A DNA stretch of 64,000 bases from Utricularia gibba (Eukaryota; Streptophyta; Magnoliopsida; Lamiales; Lentibulariaceae): assembly GCA_002189035.1 (NCBI GenBank), contig NEEC01000011.1, forward strand, positions 1,550,001 to 1,614,000, read 5' to 3'. The translations under genes and the position numbers were made by a program. This document shows, in pieces, positions 6,779-43,147 of this stretch. The notes beneath the pieces are model-generated. The model had not been told where the DNA came from. It saw only the letters and a program-made list of their open reading frames with translations, and ran no database searches. The number at the start of each line of letters is the position of its first letter. Position 1 is the first letter of the stretch.

Positions 6779-8094
6779 GTAGACTAAAAGGGGGTCATTT
6801 TTTTTTCTTTGAATTATTCATAAAAAATATTATTATTAATTTTGACTTCATTAAGGGGGGCCATGACCTCCTTTGGTACCCTATGTTCCGCCCTTGTCTA
6901 ACTCTCAATGCATGAGAAGCTGATTACTAGATAAATTGCATGCATTCAGCTTTACCTTTGAGGCAATTGCATGTTATAGAATGCCACACACTCCAATATG
7001 ATATCAAAATTCATGTGTTAGATGAGTCTTCTTAATTTTTAATTCTTTTTTATCTATTCTAAACACAATTATAAAAACCAATCATTATTAAAACATATAC
7101 TTATAATACCTATTCACCTAAATATAATATAATTTAAATACACTATTAATTAAAGAAATATTTAAATAAACTCAACATGTGTGTGGGCATCCTTTTAAAA
7201 ATCGTGGGGACAAGACGAGTACTGTTTTATAGGCATGTGTTACTCACACAAAACATGTCCCGCGTACACGAAATTTAGACAGAAGATTTGTGCGTCGCAC
7301 CGGATTGCCGTTGACTAGGGATCCATAGTCCACCCAGTGGCTGACGCCGGCGTCATATTCATCCTGAATTTATTAATGGCGGCAACGAAACACAGTCTAT
7401 GCTACTCAAGGGTTTTACTTTAACCTTAAAATACACTTCATCGGGAAGACTTCTGCCACATTATTATTATTATTATTACAACAAGTCGCCGCCTTTGTCA
7501 TGATCGAATGAGCCCATGTAACACCTGTTGCGGAATCCAGGAGCTTAGACTTGAACCATTCAACTTTGAAGTGTATGTAATCGATCGAAATGAGTCGAAG
7601 CTATTACAACAATTAATTCTATATCAAATTTGAAAATTGAAATAATCAAGTATACAAGAAATTACAGATCATTATTAATCAGTTGGATGTAATATCTTTT
7701 GATGTGATATTTATTTATTATGTATATGAGTTTAACGTATAATCGTCCGATCCATTAGATACTTAGTTTCAACAAAAGCATGTGGAATAATGTAATTTTT
7801 AGAATCGATTTGTACAGTATAAATTAACCAGTGGTAACGCTATAATAGCCATATTCAGATCTCATGTTTATTTTATTTTGAACGAAGTCTGTTACTACAC
7901 CATCCTTTCAAAATAATTTGAAAAAACTCTAGCTACTACATTTTCACATGGCATAAGCTCTCACCTGTCATAAATTAAATTCTTTACGGTTTGAAGTTAT
8001 TACTCTCTCTTCGCCATACATAAAAAATAATCTTTCTCAACAGTCATCTTTTCCAATTAATACTTTTTGCATCTCGATTGTATCTCATGAAGAG
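6779..8094. other. Intergenic DNA with an ATT microsatellite and one copy of dispersed repeat A
   Basis: No gene recognised. A TTA/ATT trinucleotide run lies at about 7461-7477. About 7640-7778 is a diverged copy of the dispersed repeat also found near 11.7, 15.4, 16.9, 25.3 and 31.6 kb; its shared tail reads roughly TCCGATCCATTAGATAC then TTAGTTTCAACA. Confidence 0.5.
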
Positions 8095-8415
8095 ATGTAT
8101 GAAGGATGTCGTGAAGCATGGATAGATTCGTGTCCGAACTTGTGCTTGCAGGATCTACTCATAACATTATTGAGTGTGTCCTCTTTTCTCGTAGGTAATT
8201 ATTTGTGTGACAATGGTTATACCAATTCTGACGGGTTTCTAAGAAATTATAACAAGCTTGACAAAGGAGCAGGAGCTGCAATATTTGATTTATCGAATGT
8301 CTATGCATCACCAGGTCTTTCAGGATTAAACCCTTGGGTAGTAAACACAGAGGAGAAAGTGGGGGAATTTGGGTTAATGGGAGTTATAAGAAACCTGGAG
8401 GCAAGGTTAGGGTAA
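8095..8415 (+). pseudogene. PIF/Harbinger transposase (HARBI1-type) remnant
   Basis: A 106-aa open frame holds one recognisable block at about 8194-8257, GNYLCDNGYTNSDGFLRNY. It resembles the YYLVDAGYTNxxGFLAPYRG motif of plant HARBI1-like nucleases, which surrounds the second catalytic aspartate of the DDE transposase. The typical RYHL continuation is absent, and neither the N-terminal catalytic region nor a Myb-like partner ORF is nearby. This is a decayed fragment in a noncoding setting. The rest of the frame is unrecognised and may have arisen by chance. Confidence 0.5.
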
Positions 8416-8752
8416 ATTTTAATTAACTAAGGGTAAACACACGCGGTAAATTAAATTAATTTTGACATCTAGGCCATGCAAACTTTACTGCATCACCTCA
8501 TCTCAAGGCACCATCTTCATTTGACTGACTTTGGCTGGTAGGTTTGAATATTTGACGTAGGGAAGACCCGAGCCCGTCTTCCAATTAATTAAGAATTTAA
8601 TTTATATTAAAAAATGGGCTGACTTTTGCTACTCGAACACGTCGCCCCCAGGTCAGAAAAGTCAAACCAGATAGAACTATTTTCAGCTTTCTTGGCAACA
8701 ACATTCCACGTGTAAGAAAATCCTAGAATCTCACTCCTCTAAAGTATGTGCA

Positions 8753-9157
8753 AGGGCCTCTCGAAATAGAAGAAATTGTAAAATGAATTAAGAAAATTCA
8801 GTAATTATTATTATTTTTAATTTTTAAGGAATATAATTTTTAATTCCTTTATAATAAAATTAGAAATTTAGATTCTGTAAGTAATTTTAAAAAAATATTA
8901 AATCTCTGCTTTAGAGACTAATTAGAGAGAATTATATTATTCACTTTTTATCTATTCTAATATATTTATATTATGATATTAAATTATATAATAATATGAT
9001 ATATTAAATTTTATAGTATACTATTAAATTTTGTAATATAATTTTATGTTATCATATAAAAAAGTTTTACAATATCAAAATGATTTTATTCACATAATAT
9101 TAAAACTAATTTTATTTTACAAAATCTAAAGCAAAGCTTTAAATTATAGAACAGCCA
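8753..9157. mobile_element. Degenerate Tourist-like MITE, family B copy
   Basis: Internal sequence AATTATATTATTCACTTTTT followed by TATCTATTCTAATA, and the later TAATATAATTTTATGTTATC, match 43310-43440 in order. It begins near GGGCCTCTCG and ends near ATAGAACAGCC, weak matches to the GGCCTGTTTTGT-type ends of the better copy at 43148. No coding capacity is seen. Confidence 0.4.
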
Positions 9158-9159
9158 TT

Positions 9160-12100
9160 GTATCGAAGAAAAACCAAAAAATTTCGATTTAATATTCGAC
9201 TCCAATTTCCTATGGCAATTCGGGCCTCTGAAATGGGCTTTCTGTGGTCGAAGAAACATGTAATGGTCCATGAACATTGAACCGCAACATAAGTAGAAAT
9301 TATGGCATATTTATTAGTGGAAATGCAGTTTATTTTGTGCAAGATCATCATTCTTATTAAATATTCAGAGTATGAAGGTGATTGTGTAATGATTATAAAG
9401 GAATCATGTAAATGCTAAAAATACCTGAAAATGTGTACAGAATAAGAATAAAAAACGGATTCTAAAAAAACATTTTACATTATATTCTTGATTATTAATG
9501 ATTAAAGTTTACACACGACAACGCCATAAAAATATAAAGCGGGTGCAATAGACTTGAATGAGAAACTTAATTTTTAATTATTATAGAGGATTCTTCGTAT
9601 TTTTATAAAAAATCATGTCATAATTTTATGATATTGTCTATTTCTTACAGTCAATATTCACGATTTTATATTATTTTATTTGAAAAAAAACACACACAAA
9701 ATTTATATAGTCACTCTAATTAATTTCGTCATATTCCTTATCTGTAATTGATTTGGAATTGAGCTAAATTGATTCTACCACCCTTCCTTATCCAGGGACT
9801 TACAATTTTTAAGAACTTTAGATTTTACATGAAACTGCTCTATCTTATTTTACATTAATTTTCTCTACTCGCATTGGAATTGTATGCAAAATAAATGACG
9901 TAAACTTTACAATTAATGAAACAAATTTGATATATTTTAAATTGTACGTGAAATTCTCACCTTTTTCCCCAAACGTAAATTTAATTTTCTTGTACCACTT
10001 TAATGTTGTCTGCACATTTGATGATTTGAATAACCTCGACATATGCTATTGATGATGCATCATTTTTTTCCAGTTGGCAGAGGGTTACAAAAACTATAGT
10101 TTAATTTTACTGCATGTTATCAGGCACGTGAACGTGACGAATACAATTAAGATGTTCACATTTTCCGATGCAGACAGTGGCGTGGTGCGGACACACTTTC
10201 AGGATCGGAGCACTGAATGCTCCACGGCGGCAGTAAACTTTTCCGGCCGTTCAAACATCTCGCAGGGATCGTCATTTGCCACGTACAGTTACACTTGGCA
10301 TCAATCAATATTGAGATATAAAGCTTCAGAAAGTAGATCAGGAATTTATCCTGGAATCTCATCGATCCACACACAGGATGATAGACGATTCCAGTGAAAT
10401 GAGCAATACAAGTACCAAACGTTGTTGAAGGAAGGCATGTGATGTCCACGAGAAGATGAATATTTTACTTTGGATATTCAGCGTGCCCACGCCGAATTTA
10501 AATGTCTGAAACAATTTTATATTCATGACCAAAGAAAAAAATAAGTTATCTGGAAACTGTGACGTGAGTCAGTGTTTTGATTCATTGAAGCATCAAGAAG
10601 GGGGAAACAGTTTTAACCGAGTTACCAGAGTAGGACACTTGCTTTTACCACTTGGCAGATGACATAAATTTGATGCTTGAATGGTTTGAATATGTGGGTG
10701 AAGTACTAAACTCATCTGAGAAATTTATATACTTTGATCGCATGCAGAAAGTTAGTCTTCCATTCTTCTAAGCTTCGGGTTCGGGGCTAGTTTGATGAAC
10801 AAAGTTGGAGATCGTCGCTCTTTCGCCCTGCCTGAACTTTGTACTTAGTCCCTGTATGTAAAGTGCTACACAAGAAAAGTAAAAAAAAAAAAAAAAAATC
10901 AAGGAGAAGAATACATTAAGTAGAATAATCACATAGATATCAAATGAGATATTCTTTTGAGTACCAGCTTCATTCCTTAATATGAACTTGAAAATTCAAT
11001 AGGTTTAGTCTATAGTAATTTTAGAAAGAATTATTTATTAGAAAAGTGTAGCTAGAGATGAAGAGAAAGTAAAATTATGAGCAGTTTAGTTAAAATAATA
11101 CAAAGGGGTATGGGTAGATAGGTATCAAATTGTCATTTATAAGCATTCGTTTTAAATGTGATTTGTGCATGTTTAAAAGTGTCAAGATCTTGGGTTTTTA
11201 CCAAAGTTTGACTTTTGGACATATGGTGTGCGGACAAGGTAGCAAGAAAACATCCCATTAGTCACCTAGGAGTCCTTGAAATCAGATTTCAGCATAAGCA
11301 GCATAAACAAAAGGCACAGAAATGATATGAAAAGCAATTGAAAGCAGATGGGAAAGAAAATGATTTCTACATAAGAAAAGGGGAGTCGTGTCTTGAAGAA
11401 AGGAGGGGGGATACAATTTTAGTTAAGAAAACCAGAGTCGTGAATGAAAGTTGTGTTGGATCCAGTCCCAACAAAGCTTTTCCCATCACTGGTTTTGCAG
11501 TTTTATGGACGGACAGTGATTTCTGTGTACTTGACACGCACTGGTGGATCACCGTTTCGCACTCTCGTTTCTCGTTGCATCTCTACCTTCGATTTCTGAA
11601 TTCCTTCTTCTTCAACCATCAAGGATCAACACCTTGTCTGGATAAAATTAAAGTGAAATATTCAAAATATATGAAAAATTATTGATTATTAGTAATTGTT
11701 TATATCTAATTTTTACTATTATAATTCATGTTTATTATATATTTAGACTTCATGTATGCTTGTCCATTTCATATATGTTCACTCGACCAATCAAATTCTT
11801 AATTGTGACAAAAATTATATAATTTAAAGCTGAACTTGTTCTTTTAATCTATCATTCTTCTTGTGGGTGCCAATCACAAGCGAACCAAGTTACACAACAA
11901 TTGCCATTGAAAACTCAATTTTCTCTGCATGTCTTTTCTTGCTTTTGCATATGTTCTGTGTAAGATAACATACATATCTTGTTGATTTGCATATCTTCTA
12001 TGTGTATAGTTTTCATCACAAACCAACAGTTTATGTTTCTTGAATGCATCTACTTACGAAATAATTTTCAGGCTCCATGTGAATCAACCCCGACTTCCAA

Positions 12101-28941: not shown

Positions 28942-29030
28942 CTCAATTCTTCAGCCCACCGGCGTTTCCCATACTTTCCGTCGACGGAATTCCCTCCGGC
29001 GATTCTCTGATCATCTTATAGGTTTCTGAA

Positions 29031-29483
29031 ATGGAGTCCTCGAGCGAGAGAAAACGTGTGAGAGATTTGGAAGAGGAGACGGTGCCGCCAGAGGCGAAAC
29101 GATTGCGAGAGAATATTCTCGAAGATTTAGATACGGAGGCGGAGGAAGTCACGGCTGCGGCGGACGAACTCGATCGCTTCGTCGAAAGCTTTGAAAGGGA
29201 GATTACGGCCGCGGAGGTTGTGGATCTGACGTCTGAGAACGGCGAATCTGCGTCAGATCTGTGTTACTTGTTGGGAGCGTCGGACGACGAGCTCGGACTG
29301 CCGCCGACGGCCGATTCTTCTCCGATTGTACTTGATAGGAGTTACGGCTTCGAGGAGGATGAGGTTGGTTTCGATGCGTCGGTTTTCGCGGGCGAGGTTT
29401 GGGATGCGGATTCGTTCGGTTTTGGGTTCGGATACGGGTTGGGGAACCTGTGGATGGTTCAGAGTTCGAATACGTGGCCTTAG
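29031..29483 (+). CDS. Small acidic plant protein of unknown function
   Basis: Single-exon 150-aa protein. The N-terminus has a basic KRVRDLEEE stretch and PEAKRLRENILEDLD (20-34). A helical acidic segment follows (DELDRFVESFEREI, 45-58), then DLCYLLGASDDELGLPP (76-92) and a Phe/Gly-rich tail (about 126-145). The LCYLL-x-ASDDELGLPP segment is one I associate with a family of uncharacterised plant proteins, possibly including tobacco EIG-E80, an elicitor- or ethylene-induced gene; that link is from memory and uncertain. No signal peptide or membrane span is seen, and KRLR could act as a nuclear signal. GC content, a TATA box at the right distance and clean codons support a real gene. Confidence 0.7.
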   Translation: MESSSERKRVRDLEEETVPPEAKRLRENILEDLDTEAEEVTAAADELDRFVESFEREITAAEVVDLTSENGESASDLCYLLGASDDELGLPPTADSSPIVLDRSYGFEEDEVGFDASVFAGEVWDADSFGFGFGYGLGNLWMVQSSNTWP

Positions 29484-31866
29484 ATGGGCTGTTCGATTAT
29501 TCGGATATGGGTATCAGGTCGGGTGATGGGTTCGTAGATCCGAGACTCTGCCGGCCCGATAGTCGTTAGAATTTGTCAAATATCGATTACCAAACGTGCA
29601 GCACAGCATGAGGGAATACTCCTAAATATAGAATCTCTTTATTTGTTCTATCTCTATTTTTTTTCATTTCGATTTAAGTCAATTACATTAGCTAATTACC
29701 AAATATGTTGTTTAACTATATTATTTCTACTTGAAAACAACTTGACCTGAGTAGTTTTCATGTGATAACCGAACAAATATATATCTATAAATAGAGTAAC
29801 CTCATTAGTCATTACTAAATAAAATTTTTATTTATAGTATATTAAATACTATTTTATCTTAATTAATATATATTAATTTTGAATTTTTTGAAAATTGATA
29901 ATTCAAATTAGTTATTAAGACAATTTTTATTTAATATTTAATTAATAATTAAACGCAAGCCTATATATTAGTTAATTGTATAGTACAAAATAATATGTTA
30001 TCGTTTTTCATTCCAGTTATCAATTTTTTTTTCTCATGGTTTATTTTTCATATTTTATAAAAACTCGCTTTGATACTCAAAAATAATTTTATTAAATTTA
30101 ACTATTATTAAATATTATAAAATATTAACTATTTTGATTTTTTTATAAAAAAATTTGTTTAATTATTATTATTATTAATTGAATAAATTTTATATAAATT
30201 TAATAACATAAAATTTGTATTAATAATTAAATATGTTGTGAACGATATTTTTAGTATGTGATAGATAACGTAAGAATGATCATATATATAAATGACGTAT
30301 AAAATGTAAATAATTTACTAGGGGTAATGGGTTGTCACTCATTTGAGATTTTTCGAAGACTTGGAGATCGATTTTGGCAAATTTATTTATCTAATAAAAC
30401 GATGATAATGGAAAAGAAAAATTAAACGAAATAAAAGATATTTTCATATTAACTGCGAAATGCCTTTCAATTCGGCATCCCATGTGGCATGGGCACATGA
30501 GGTGGTGTCATGATTTCATTTGTGTCATCTGTCGATGAACCTCCATTGTGACCAAACCAAACTACATGGGGCAGTGTGTCGGGGACATGTTATTAAATGA
30601 ATAATGCACACGTTACACGTATGTTATGAATTTAAAATTATGATGATCGTTGTAACATATAAATTGCTAGTTTTTTTTAATAAAAGGGTTTATTATAGCA
30701 ACATATAAGTTGCTGGCTTTGTAGCCTGATATCAACCACCATCATCACATTTTTTAAAGTGGTGAATTTTGTATTATTATTATTATTAAAAAAATTTGAA
30801 GCCAATTTTTATTTTATGATAAGAAAAGATAAATTAGGTACATCACGCTATTTATTTTTACTTTTAGTTTTTTCTAAAATTAATTTAAAAAATTTCTCTC
30901 ATTTATCATATCTTGTCAAAACTCTCATCATTCTTGTCATTTCATGTAACATGTATGTTTTTAGTTTTATATTTATTTATAGTTAAGTAGTTGAATTAAA
31001 TTTAAACACGACAATTAGGTTTGGTTATCACACAATTAAAGGTTTTGTTTTCAAATCTGAAAATGGGGAGTTTCTTTTGGTGTTAAACTTGTTGGAAATT
31101 TGAGAAATTTTGTCAAATTGTTTTGTTTGCTATTTGTTTGCATGGAATATCTTTTTTTATTATTATTTGGATGTTTGATAAACTGAAATTGAATATATAT
31201 TTGCATTATTTATTTTTATTGTATTTGTTGGTTGTTTGTTTGTTAAGTAACAATATTGAAGTAAAAATATGGCTGTTTCTAATGGAAAAAGGAAGAAGAT
31301 TATGCCATCCATCTAACAAAATATAAATAAGTTATGCCACTAAAATTTTCTTTTTTGAGATTCAAGCACAATTGAGATTTTCTTGCAACTTGACATAAAA
31401 GAGGTAGACAAAAGAGGATTAGTGCATTACATGGAGAACCAGATGCAAGTGTATCATCAAAGTAAAAAATGAAATCTCTCATAGATTTGAGATTCTTCAT
31501 TTTGAATCTTTGTCAAATGAAAAATTTATTAGAATTAATAATTCATATTTCAACTTGAAATTAAATAGTGAAATATATAATAAATTATAAATCAATATTA
31601 ATTGACAAGTTTAATGTTTTCTAATGTGATTCACATTTTCTTATATATTTGAATTTGACATTTACTTGTTCAACCAATTAAATTTTTAATTTCAATAAAA
31701 TCAATATCTCAATGGTAACACTCGAAACCCAACCAACAATTTAAGTCTGTATTTTTATCACATATATGGGGGAAATGAAGGCTCCTTTGTTGTTTTTCTT
31801 TTTTTTTATCATGGGTAACAACATGGATCTCTTTCTATTGTTCAGGTAAAGATGAGTAATGTTTGT
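29484..31866. other. AT-rich intergenic DNA left of the copia element
   Basis: No coding frame of interest. 29484-29590 probably holds the 3' untranslated region of the preceding gene. One copy of dispersed repeat A lies at about 31560-31700. An ATT/TTA run is at about 30773-30788. Confidence 0.45.
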
Positions 31867-36036: not shown

Positions 36037-37130
36037 CTGTCATTTCTTCTTTCAAATGCATGGGATTTTCATGTTAATTTACTTTTTTGGTGAATCTCAA
36101 GGAATCATCAAGTCCCTAGCGATGATAAGTTTGTCAGAAATTGGATGCGAGACCTTTTTGTGGTGGGTGTTGGATTGTAAGTTTCTTATATGAATGGTGA
36201 GCCAAATTTTGTTTAATAGATGTTGTATCAGTTGTAATGATGTGGGGAGTTATGTAAAAGAATGAGAATCGCTTTATGATGCAGCTGTAGTGGGCCGCCC
36301 TCTATGGATCGTATAAACAGGCCCACAACCTGCTGGTCTCACTCCAAGAAACCCACCAAACATAACGGTTACCGTTATGAACCCCTGAAGCTGAAGCCGT
36401 GAAGAAAAGCAAGGGAGATTACTAAGAAAACAGAAGAATTCTTTTCTCCGACGCAGCAGAAAAATGAAAGGCTGGAATGAGCTCTCTCTCTCTAACAGAC
36501 TCATCGAGTGAGTTGGAGCGAAATTTTAGTCATTTTTATCAGTTCTGTTTTCGCTATTACCCTGGTACGGGAATGGGGCAGACTATTAATTTGCTGTGTT
36601 TAGCTTCTTGAACCTGATTGGAACTGTGATTGTTCCTGTAATTCTCAAACGTGATAGTGAGTGAAGCTGTTCAGCCTGGTGTGGAGCACCCGACGTTTTT
36701 CCCGGAAGGATTTTCCTGTTAAAATCTTGAAGTTCTATTTTTGTTGCTGTTTAGTTACACGTTGCAGGCGCAAATTCATTCATTCGCCTGAGAGTGTTCT
36801 TACGGATTTGTCTGGTATTGTTAATATCCTATCAGCAGCAACTCTGTGGGTACTGATTTTTGAACACAGAAAATGGTGATTAGTGACACTTCGATGTTCA
36901 ATGCATTCGAATGTCGGCTGCTTGGCTCCATCTCCCTGTATTTTCCTTGTGTTTTCGTAAAATGGTTTGTCAGACTTTGCTATGAATGCTGGTAATTTCC
37001 TCCGCGCTTCTCTTTTTTGTCGCCTGGGTGTACTTTTGAGCGCTTTCCAGGAATGGTTTATGGTTTTCGTCTTTTCTACCACCCCTGTCTCGAAGTAACG
37101 GAAATGGACGGTTTGATTTGGCGGGTGCAG
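36037..37130. other. DNA between the copia element and the B3-like gene; possible first exon at 36464
   Basis: Contains a TC-rich patch and a short open segment 36464-36506 (MKGWNELSLSNRLIE-like) that ends in a strong donor, GA followed by GTGAGT. I found no phase-matched acceptor that leads to a recognisable protein. It could be the start of an unannotated transcript or an upstream exon of the next gene. Confidence 0.25.
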
Positions 37131-37138
37131 TATAAAAG
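37131..37138 (+). promoter_or_regulatory. TATA box of the B3-like gene
   Basis: TATAAAAG in GC-richer DNA, followed by a pyrimidine-rich CTTCTTCTTC leader, a typical plant core promoter layout. It lies about 200 bp before the upstream ORF and 260 bp before the main start codon. Confidence 0.6.
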
Positions 37139-37331
37139 AAGACGACACAAAACATTCAGTTCACTTCGCTCCTCTTCTTCTTCTTCTTCAACTGGAAGAC
37201 GCAGAGTTCACACACGGTTTCTCTCTTGGATCGTCGGATTCCACAATTGCCCCTCAAACCTCCTCAGCAAGGTAAAACAAACTTGCGATTCTCCTCTGCT
37301 GGAATCCAAGAATTCGCTGCCGGCAATCCAA

Positions 37332-37393: not shown

Positions 37394-39071
37394 ATGATAG
37401 AAGAAACTGCGCGCCCTCACCTGCCGGAATCCAAGAACACATCCCTGGAAAAGAAAAGATCCCCTGCAGACAAAGGGAAACGACCCATGGAATATCATGA
37501 TGCTTTGGAAGTTAATGAAGATGAAGCAGCTCCGCGTCCCTTTGTAGACAAAGGGAAACGTCCCATGGAATATGATGATGATAGCTTTGGCATGGAAGAA
37601 AACGGAAAACCTCCTGAGTTGAGCTTCATCGATCTCTTTTCTTTCAATTGATTTTCATTGATTCTCTTTTCTTTTGTAGCTACTGACTCCCAATTGTGCA
37701 TACAGTGACGTCGGCGTCGGACCTGATGATCTGAAGTTTCATCGGAAACTGACTGTTTACGACCAACGGGCGCTGCGGATTTCTTGCGAGGAAGCCTGCA
37801 TTCTTACCGGAGATCCGCGTCTGAGAACTCCAATGGTTCAATTCATCCCCATTGATTCATATACAACAATAGTCGGTCTCCGCGATACCTCAGCCCGTCT
37901 ATACGAAATGACGATAACCACCAGAGGAGTCACAGCAAGAAGAAGAGTGTACGATCTTGGTGGGGATTGGGGGAAATTCGTCGAGATCAATCACTTAGCA
38001 CCCAATGATGAAGTCTACTTCTACGTTGTCAGGAATTACAATTGGAGAGGGAGGCCCTACGTTGTCATACATGCAGCGAAAAACACAGATGAATCCCCTG
38101 AAGCCGTAAGTAATCATCGGAGTAGGGAAGCAGGCCTCCACAGAGATGTAGCAGATGATTTCCCGGAGGTTTTCAGTGGTGAGCAGGAAACTGAAGAGCT
38201 GGGAACGTCTGAAATGGACCTGGGTGATGGGATCATTATTCCCAGACTTCCTGATTTCAAGTGCACGCCAACAGAGTTGGCCCTGCACAGAATGGCGTTG
38301 AAGGATACGCTTAATGACCCGCAATTTTCTAGTATGATGTCCAGCGCAGCTGCGTCGAGCGAGTATACAAAGGGGGTGGCGGACGAGATCTGCGAATCGA
38401 TTGTCAAGTCAGAGAGAGCAATCGATTATTTCAAAATGTTAAGCATGTACAGAGAGAAGAATGCGGCGCAGCATGCCAGTTTGAGAACGACGACATCTCC
38501 CAGACAAAAGTTTGCATTTCAATATATTCCTGATGGTGCGACACCGACGGAAAAGGGGATCTGGTAACACTCCTGCTCTAAGTTTTCATTTACAGTATGG
38601 AAAGTTCAACGTTGTAAAAAAAACTGGTTTTTTTGATGGAAAACAGAGGTTTCATATATAAAGCCTACCTTTAAGGTTCTGATGTTGTTTTGCAGCTACT
38701 TCCGGCCACAAGATAGGCGCTTCGTACACCTTCTACAGGAACGCGACATTCCGGACTTGCCGCTTCGTTATGCAGAAGCCTATGCTCTCACTATGGATGA
38801 AGTAATTCTTCGTCGTCCAAGGACGATATACCGAAAGCAATTCACAGGGTATGATCTGAATGGGATGGCATATATTCTGGAGCTCACCAACTGGATAGAC
38901 CCAGATGGACAAATTCACTATGTGCTGAAGAATCAGTGGAAGAACTTCCTCGTTGTGCATTATCTATCGCCAGGGGATGAAATCACTTTCTACCAGCTCC
39001 ATGGCTCTCGTCCCGATGGCGAATTGTGCGTCGCTTTGAGGTTTTTCAAACGGCCAAAAGGCAAGCGATGA
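37394..39071 (+). CDS. Protein with two divergent B3-like domains, three exons
   Basis: Exons 37394-37617, 37706-38563 and 38696-39071; introns GTTGAG...TACAG and GTAACA...TGCAG keep phase 2 throughout and give 485 aa. Residues 1-74 are low-complexity with a repeated DKGKRPMEY motif. A first B3-like fold spans about 118-200 (YEMTITTRG, WGKFVEINHLAPNDEVYFYVV) and a second about 395-482 (YILELTNW, VLKNQWKNFLVVHYLSPGDE). Both keep the hydrophobic/W...F...L.PGDE..FY pattern of B3 DNA-binding domains but are far from ARF, ABI3 or RAV types. A linker of about 160 aa separates them. Probably nuclear, perhaps DNA-binding and REM-like; the function is unknown. The start is the first in-frame ATG after the uORF; upstream exons cannot be excluded. 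Confidence 0.65.
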
Positions 39072-41516: not shown

Positions 41517-42519
41517 CTACAAGGCATTGATGATTCTCTGTTTCTTGGTACACTGCAACCCCAACGCCTCCATTTCGCGCATCCTTTTTCCTCGGCCGCA
41601 GGCGCCGCCGTCGCCGGCAGGCACCTCGAAGATGTTCACCCCGAAGAGGCGGACCATCTGAATGGGCTGAATCAGCTGCACGGAACCGACGACGTTTCCC
41701 GGTCTCCAGTCGATGAAGAGCTGCCTTTCCTGCCCTGTCGATCTTTGAAAACAGACGATGTCTCCGGGTCGTAAATCCTTCTCTTTTACAAACCTGCTCC
41801 AGCCTTTGGTTAAAACGTAGCTCTGGCTGCTGTTCCAATACGAGTACCTGAATCTCCACACCTTTCCTCCGGCATCTTCGAAATTCAACAGCACCCCTTT
41901 GGAAATGCTCCCGTTTTGTAGAGGGAAGTGCTTCTCAGCTTGCTGCTTCGGAATCACCAGTCTGTGGCAGTATCGTTGTTAATCCTTCTTCTTAGTTGGA
42001 AAAAGTAACAAAATATGCGTCGATACCTATTGAGTTTCCCAACGTCGCTGGGGGTGACGGCTTTCTCGAATAACTGTTCACGGTAGTGCTCCGCGGGTCT
42101 CACGCCGGGGAAGGCGGAGAGGAAGAAGGGTTTTTTGCCGGCGACGAAGCTTTTCCGGCTATGTTGAAACTCATCTTGATACGTATGTTTTCTCAACATA
42201 TCAACGATCTCGTCCTTGGAATGAGCGTTCAGAAACGCGGCCTCCATTTCGTCTTCCGACAAGGCCTTGAAATTGGTGACGGGTCACGGCCGCGGAACTT
42301 CTGCGCCGCAGTGTCGTAGGCTCTCGCCGCCGTGTCCTCCTCGTTAAAAGTACCTAACCAAATCCGGCGATGCCTCTCGTAGATTTGCGCACCCCATCTC
42401 CCGTTCGGCTGCGGGACCACCCCTTTGAACCTCGAAGACGGCAGCTTCCTCGATTCCACCTCCGCTCCAGTTTCAGTCAACAACTGAGACAAACTATCCT
42501 CCACACAACTCCCTTCCAT
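41517..42519 (-). CDS. RAV1-like: RAV-type AP2 + B3 transcription factor (RAV1/TEMPRANILLO-like), frameshifted as read
   Basis: Exon 1 42519-42027 and exon 2 41961-41517, with a 65-nt intron (GTATCG...CACAG). The AP2 domain lies at about residues 28-78 ([21 protein letters not shown], then [18 protein letters not shown]). After a linker comes the B3 domain ([16 protein letters not shown], splice, [53 protein letters not shown]), and RLFGVNIF is the RAV repression motif. RAV proteins bind CAACA and CACCTG elements; TEM proteins repress FT and flowering. As read, the frame breaks at 42281-42283: AP2 is in one frame and the linker plus B3 in another, and exon lengths total one base short of a multiple of three. 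One missing C in the CCC run explains this: assembly error or recent pseudogene. Everything else is intact. Confidence 0.87.
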
Positions 42520-43147
42520 TTCCCAAGCTCAATCCCCCAAAACAGCTGAATAAATAGCCGACTTCAGCCACTTCCACAAACAGATAAAAAAATGGTAAAA
42601 CAGGAAATGGCTGCAGGAAGGGGAGAGAGATACACACAAGCAAGAAACCAGGGAGCGACCGACAAAACAGCGAAAACAGAGCACCGGATGATCCAAACTA
42701 CGATACCATACAATACAACACACGTCTGCAATAATGTTGTCTAGGGGAAAAGGAAAATCCAAAAAACCAGTACATCAGACATGGTCCATTATTCCCTGTG
42801 GAGATGAATCCAGTTTCAGTTAATTCCAGTTTTTCATTCACCCCGTTAAAGGTAACTGCTCTAATTCTACAGATGTTTGAGAGAGATGGGATTCCTTAAA
42901 TTTATGAAATGAGGAGAGACAATGAAAGGTGGGTGGGTGGGTCGGGTCAACTATTGGATAAAAGGGAGGGGTGGACTTCTCTGCTTGGCCTCTTTTTTCT
43001 TTTTCAATTGAAAGCCAATCATTTAATTCATCTCTTTTACTTTATACTACAAAATTATCACATGCATGTGAAAAAATGCCCAATTTTTTAAATGATTCAA
43101 TGATTTTCACAATATCTCACATGTCAGTAGACTTTCTTTTTCTTTAA
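42520..43147. other. Probable RAV promoter and leader
   Basis: DNA upstream of the minus-strand RAV start. It is AG/CA-rich to about 42760, then mixed. I see no clear TATA box near the start, so the leader may be long. Confidence 0.3.

Follow-up and report, generated by a model that had tools for sequence, protein, structure and literature searches.

REM proteins belong to the B3 superfamily, often carry several B3 domains per protein and are highly divergent (PMC2688026). Their B3 domains nearly always contain an intron at a conserved site inside the domain, with rare exceptions (PMC2688026). A long-read assembly of ~100 Mb is available for Utricularia gibba, and the genome has undergone two recent whole-genome duplications (PMC8333044). 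We analysed a 64,000-nt stretch of U. gibba DNA, the window (contig NEEC01000011.1, forward-strand positions 1,550,001 to 1,614,000), and searched the genome (100.09 Mb in 516 contigs) for relatives of one of its genes. This gene is real, intact but fast-changing, and encodes two very divergent B3 domains. Its best reading is a fast-evolving, REM-like orphan B3 regulator.

Gene model and N-terminal repeats

The gene and its parts are located in the window as follows.

37131..37137, + strand: TATAAAA, a possible core promoter TATA box by consensus only, ~260 nt before the start codon
37394-39071, + strand: B3 gene, 485 aa, three exons, TGA at 39069-39071
37394..37617, + strand: exon 1 (coding), N-terminus with two KGKRP patches; ATG-opened frame, coding-like codon usage
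37465..37502, + strand: 38-nt direct repeat, copy 1, encoding ADKGKRPMEYHD; repeat search, 92% identity to copy 2
37543..37580, + strand: 38-nt direct repeat, copy 2, encoding VDKGKRPMEYDD; repeat search, spacing 78 nt
37618..37705, + strand: intron 1, 88 nt, GT-AG, phase 2, weak donor GTTGAG; predicted from frame and splice consensus
37706..38563, + strand: exon 2 (coding), B3 domain 1 and linker; inside a 295-codon open frame, codon usage
37731..38081, + strand: B3 domain 1, residues 84-200; Pfam B3 stretch, AlphaFold2, Foldseek and VIA
38082..38563, + strand: linker with coding-like codon usage and no match in the Pfam scan
38564..38695, + strand: intron 2, 132 nt, GT-AG, phase 2; predicted from frame and splice consensus
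38696..39071, + strand: exon 3 (coding), B3 domain 2, basic C-terminus KRPKGKR and stop; frame, splice sites, codon usage
38721..39047, + strand: B3 domain 2, core of exon 3 from FVHLL to ALRFF; sub-threshold Pfam B3 match, shuffle test

Joined by reading frame and splice consensus, the three exons form an intact open frame of 485 codons. Its start at 37394 and stop at 39071 are exactly those proposed in an earlier sequence-only reading of this DNA. With codon usage trained on ten other exons of the same genome, the proposed frame comes out as the favoured one all along the gene, including the linker of ~160 residues between the B3 domains. Exon 1 depends on the weak donor GTTGAG, which is placed by splice consensus only. 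Each B3 domain lies whole within one exon and is preceded by a phase-2 intron. We also considered the linker as an unspliced intron. The in-frame codon usage (LLR +16, against negative values in every other frame) and the open frame of 295 codons argue against it, although a decayed copy of the gene, described below, seems to be missing most of the linker.

The motif DKGKRPMEY occurs at residues 26-34 and again at residues 52-60, in agreement with the repeated N-terminus noted previously. It is present twice because of the 38-nt direct repeat, whose copies are 92% identical and 78 nt apart. The start codon lies between the two copies of a further, 22-nt repeat (37291-37312 and 37416-37437). 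Together, the two repeats suggest that the 5' end of the gene is prone to small duplications. No match to the N-terminus was found elsewhere in the genome.

Two divergent B3 domains and their class

By hmmscan, the Pfam B3 profile (PF02362) matches the whole protein in two stretches with an E-value of 7.4e-7 and 29.5 bits. This score is 0.6 bits under the curated cut-off of 30.1 bits, so automatic Pfam annotation would miss the gene. Scored singly, half 1 reaches 18.1 bits and half 2 16.9 bits, the latter sub-threshold (E 0.006). A second profile was built from 34 other B3 domains, all from other genes of the same genome. Against it, half 1 scores 17.0 bits and half 2 17.5 bits, whereas among 500 shuffled versions of each half the top scores are 5.4 and 3.7 bits, respectively. 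The whole protein matches no Pfam family besides B3, and no partner domain such as AP2 is found. A phmmer search of the whole protein against the PDB returned nothing relevant, and a search with a profile of the two halves found RAV1 only at E 1.2.

Structure models were made for each half. The AlphaFold2 model of half 1 used an alignment of 17 rows, which were half 1, half 2 and 15 other domains. It has a pLDDT of 89.4 and a pTM of 0.82, and its strands and helices follow the order of the B3 barrel with its seven strands and short helices. In Foldseek, the best 26 matches are all plant B3 domains. In VIA, the model matches VAL1 with a Z score of 13.5 (rmsd 2.1 over 103 residues), and FUS3, ARF5 and NGA1 with 13.3; these four matches have rmsd values of 2.1-3.1 over 102-112 residues. 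VRN1, At1g16640 and B3-like restriction enzymes follow at lower Z scores of 6.8 to 9.5. Since the alignment contains B3 rows, the confidence of the model cannot be separated from the claim of homology. The model supports compatibility of half 1 with the B3 fold and is not independent proof. The single-sequence model of half 2 is of low confidence (pLDDT 44) and uninformative. Among the 50 Foldseek matches listed for it none is a B3 domain and none falls below E 0.001, a result that carries no weight.

The sequence-only reading had described two highly divergent B3-like domains. The Pfam match, the shuffle test and the confident model of half 1 bear this out; as for the modelled barrel, half 1 has it and the model of half 2 is uninformative. 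Both halves are divergent B3 domains, half 2 as judged by its sequence alone. The gene is an outlier within the well-known B3 superfamily and not a new kind of protein.

The same reading had suggested an internal duplication. LAPNDEVYFY starts at residue 172 in half 1 and LSPGDEITFY at residue 451 in half 2. The two halves are 24-25% identical overall, and a 25-residue core aligns with an E-value of 1e-5. Their resemblance is weak yet above chance. A tree test does not reject a topology constrained to join the halves (p-AU 0.42). The likeness stands, and a common origin is neither shown nor rejected.

To which class does the gene belong? In each half, a count that begins at the first Phe of strand 1 and ends at the Leu of strand 2 gives 13 residues. 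The arm between these strands has 14 residues in At1g16640 (PDB 1yel) and in the REM-like gene at L037, and 16 in RAV, LAV and ARF. The class-specific recognition-arm motifs of RAV, ARF and LAV are absent in the alignment. The internal intron typical of REM genes is absent from both B3 domains. In the tree, half 1 is placed on the REM side (support 98/99) and half 2 with ARF (support 85/91). Both halves form long branches (3.3 and 3.5 changes per column, respectively), and the tree reveals neither their class nor a shared origin. The hhalign comparisons of the two-half profile with class sets drawn from the same genome gave probabilities of 88.5% for ARF, 85% for the At2g31720-like group, 75% for RAV and 67% for the REM set; LAV was also among the sets, and the classes are not separated. 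The previously noted lack of fit to the common B3 classes is upheld, as the profile comparisons and the tree yield no class. The gene belongs to the B3 superfamily, is claimed by no class and is REM-like in arm length.

A duplicated block with one decayed copy

The genome searches found a sole relative of the gene, at C328:2038351-2038628 (-), and no other intact member. It is 55% identical to domain 2, is split by a frame change and has no detectable N-terminus. This copy is a pseudogene. It lies in a collinear block with 69-80% DNA identity to the window. The RAV gene, the B3 gene, a GDT1-like gene that is a relic in the window and a further gene (window 29030-29532) follow in the same order, and the RAV gene lies beside the B3 gene in the same convergent arrangement in both blocks. 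The B3 gene was present before the block duplication.

The neighbouring genes were also compared. One encodes a membrane protein, which we take to be GDT1/TMEM165-like. It is a relic at window ~36039-36271, and its C328 counterpart (L005 ~7600-9460, -) seems for the most part intact. The GDT1-like gene was kept in C328 and the B3 gene in the window, which indicates reciprocal gene loss after the duplication. Each block has one RAV/TEM-like gene with AP2 and B3 domains (window 41519-42536, -; L005:1075-2121, +). In both, an apparent GT-AG phase-2 intron interrupts the first B3 arm between KLN-R and LVIPK, although the RAV genes of Arabidopsis and moss are described as lacking introns (PMC2688026). 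At ~42280-42305 (-), just after KFRGRD, the window RAV copy has one base fewer than its duplicate. This causes a frameshift where the AP2 domain ends and reflects either inactivation or an assembly error. An acidic protein of ~150 aa (window 29022-29483, +) is kept in both blocks (L054 in C328) with 74% DNA identity and has no Pfam match.

The sequence-only reading had proposed that the domain spacing, the linker and the N-terminal repeats may define an undescribed subfamily. These features are not supported as subfamily marks. The searches turned up no other intact member in the genome, the N-terminal repeats come from one 38-nt duplication found only in this gene, and the single paralogue is decayed with no detectable N-terminus. 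A conserved yet undescribed two-B3 subfamily of Lamiales or Lentibulariaceae is doubtful. In favour of it, the shortened arm is common to both halves, both domains lack an internal intron and follow a phase-2 intron, the gene is older than the block duplication, and the known classes do not group with the halves. However, the known copies are one intact and one decayed, and the latter also seems to lack most of the linker. A literature search for the gene family in Utricularia found nothing. We hold it as a tentative idea that the gene represents lineage-restricted, undescribed two-B3 regulators with a shortened recognition arm in both domains and uninterrupted domain exons, which arose before the duplication and evolved fast enough to fall short of the Pfam cut-off.

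The decayed copy also bears on constraint. In the DNA alignment of the window with C328, only the exon 3 part was used, because the alignment 5' of ~38460 is untrustworthy as homology, with a good part of it extending into the adjacent GDT1-like gene. Between exon 3 and the decayed copy, ~27% of the domain 2 sites differ. By codon position the differences are 31, 24 and 26%, close to the 31% of flanking non-coding DNA; in the neighbouring RAV pair they are 13, 10 and 33%. This even spread speaks against strong constraint on domain 2. It leaves room for moderate constraint, because the decayed copy adds changes at all positions. Under neutral simulation with 10-20% change, 5-10 stops arise in frame and 0-3 of 1000 copies stay free of stops. 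A stop-free frame is so rare under neutrality that selection for a protein, one whose amino acids change fast, is the best explanation of the intact frame.

It is unlikely that the gene is instead under little constraint, heading to decay like its duplicate and perhaps without present function. The even codon-position differences, viewed beside the RAV pair, and the failure to find an intact relative elsewhere in the genome would fit such a course. However, neutrality at such divergence would not be expected to leave the 485-codon frame and the splice sites intact, and codon usage is coding-like throughout the gene. Changes on the decayed branch hit all positions equally, so the even spread alone is no sign of lost constraint in the window copy.

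Probable function and comparison with known B3 proteins

The gene probably encodes a nuclear DNA-binding protein of the B3 superfamily, likely a transcription factor or chromatin-binding regulator acting in a REM-type manner; we infer its nuclear location, DNA binding, regulatory role and REM-like behaviour. The two B3 barrels, one per exon and separated by the linker, would bind DNA side by side, and would contact it through shortened and altered recognition arms. The basic patches KGKRP (twice) and KRPKGKR at the C-terminus, putative nuclear signals picked by eye, may bring the protein to the nucleus. The DNA-reading stretches diverge from those of other B3 domains (TTRGVTARRR in half 1, LTNWIDPDGQI in half 2). 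Specificity is therefore not predictable, and loss of sequence-specific binding is possible. DNA binding itself may be weak or lost, since the recognition arms of other B3 domains have not been kept here and the net charge of half 1 is zero.

The gene illustrates the extent to which a B3 domain can diverge and still retain its signature. If orthologues exist, the paired B3 domains with shortened arms would be a test case for change or loss of B3 DNA specificity. Without them, it would be one more fast-evolving B3 gene.

Membership in the At2g31720-like (PF03754, DUF313) group of atypical B3 proteins, in place of a REM-like placement, is quite improbable. In its favour, the profile of both halves shows a weak similarity to the genome's one member (L006; hhalign probability 85-86%, E about 5e-6). 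However, ARF does as well (88.5%), PF03754 gives no hit in the protein at E <= 10, a genome search with that profile does not return the gene, and the protein has two domains and, relative to L006, a first arm that is shorter by ~4 residues.

The ARF, RAV/NGATHA and LAV proteins have the core pattern W..F....L..GD...F in common with this protein, and ARF1/ARF5, RAV1/TEM1/NGA1 and VAL1/FUS3/LEC2 have the same fold as half 1 in its model (VIA Z 10.8-13.5). However, identity to these domains is ~20% or less. Compared to them, the first arm is shorter, the recognition arms are altered and a second domain type such as AP2 is lacking.

Compared to REM proteins, both halves lack the internal intron and have lost the IP motif of strand 2 (LRIS, LPLR), and no REM class fits. 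What the protein shares with REM proteins, besides high divergence and more than one B3 domain, is the arm of 13-14 residues between strands 1 and 2.
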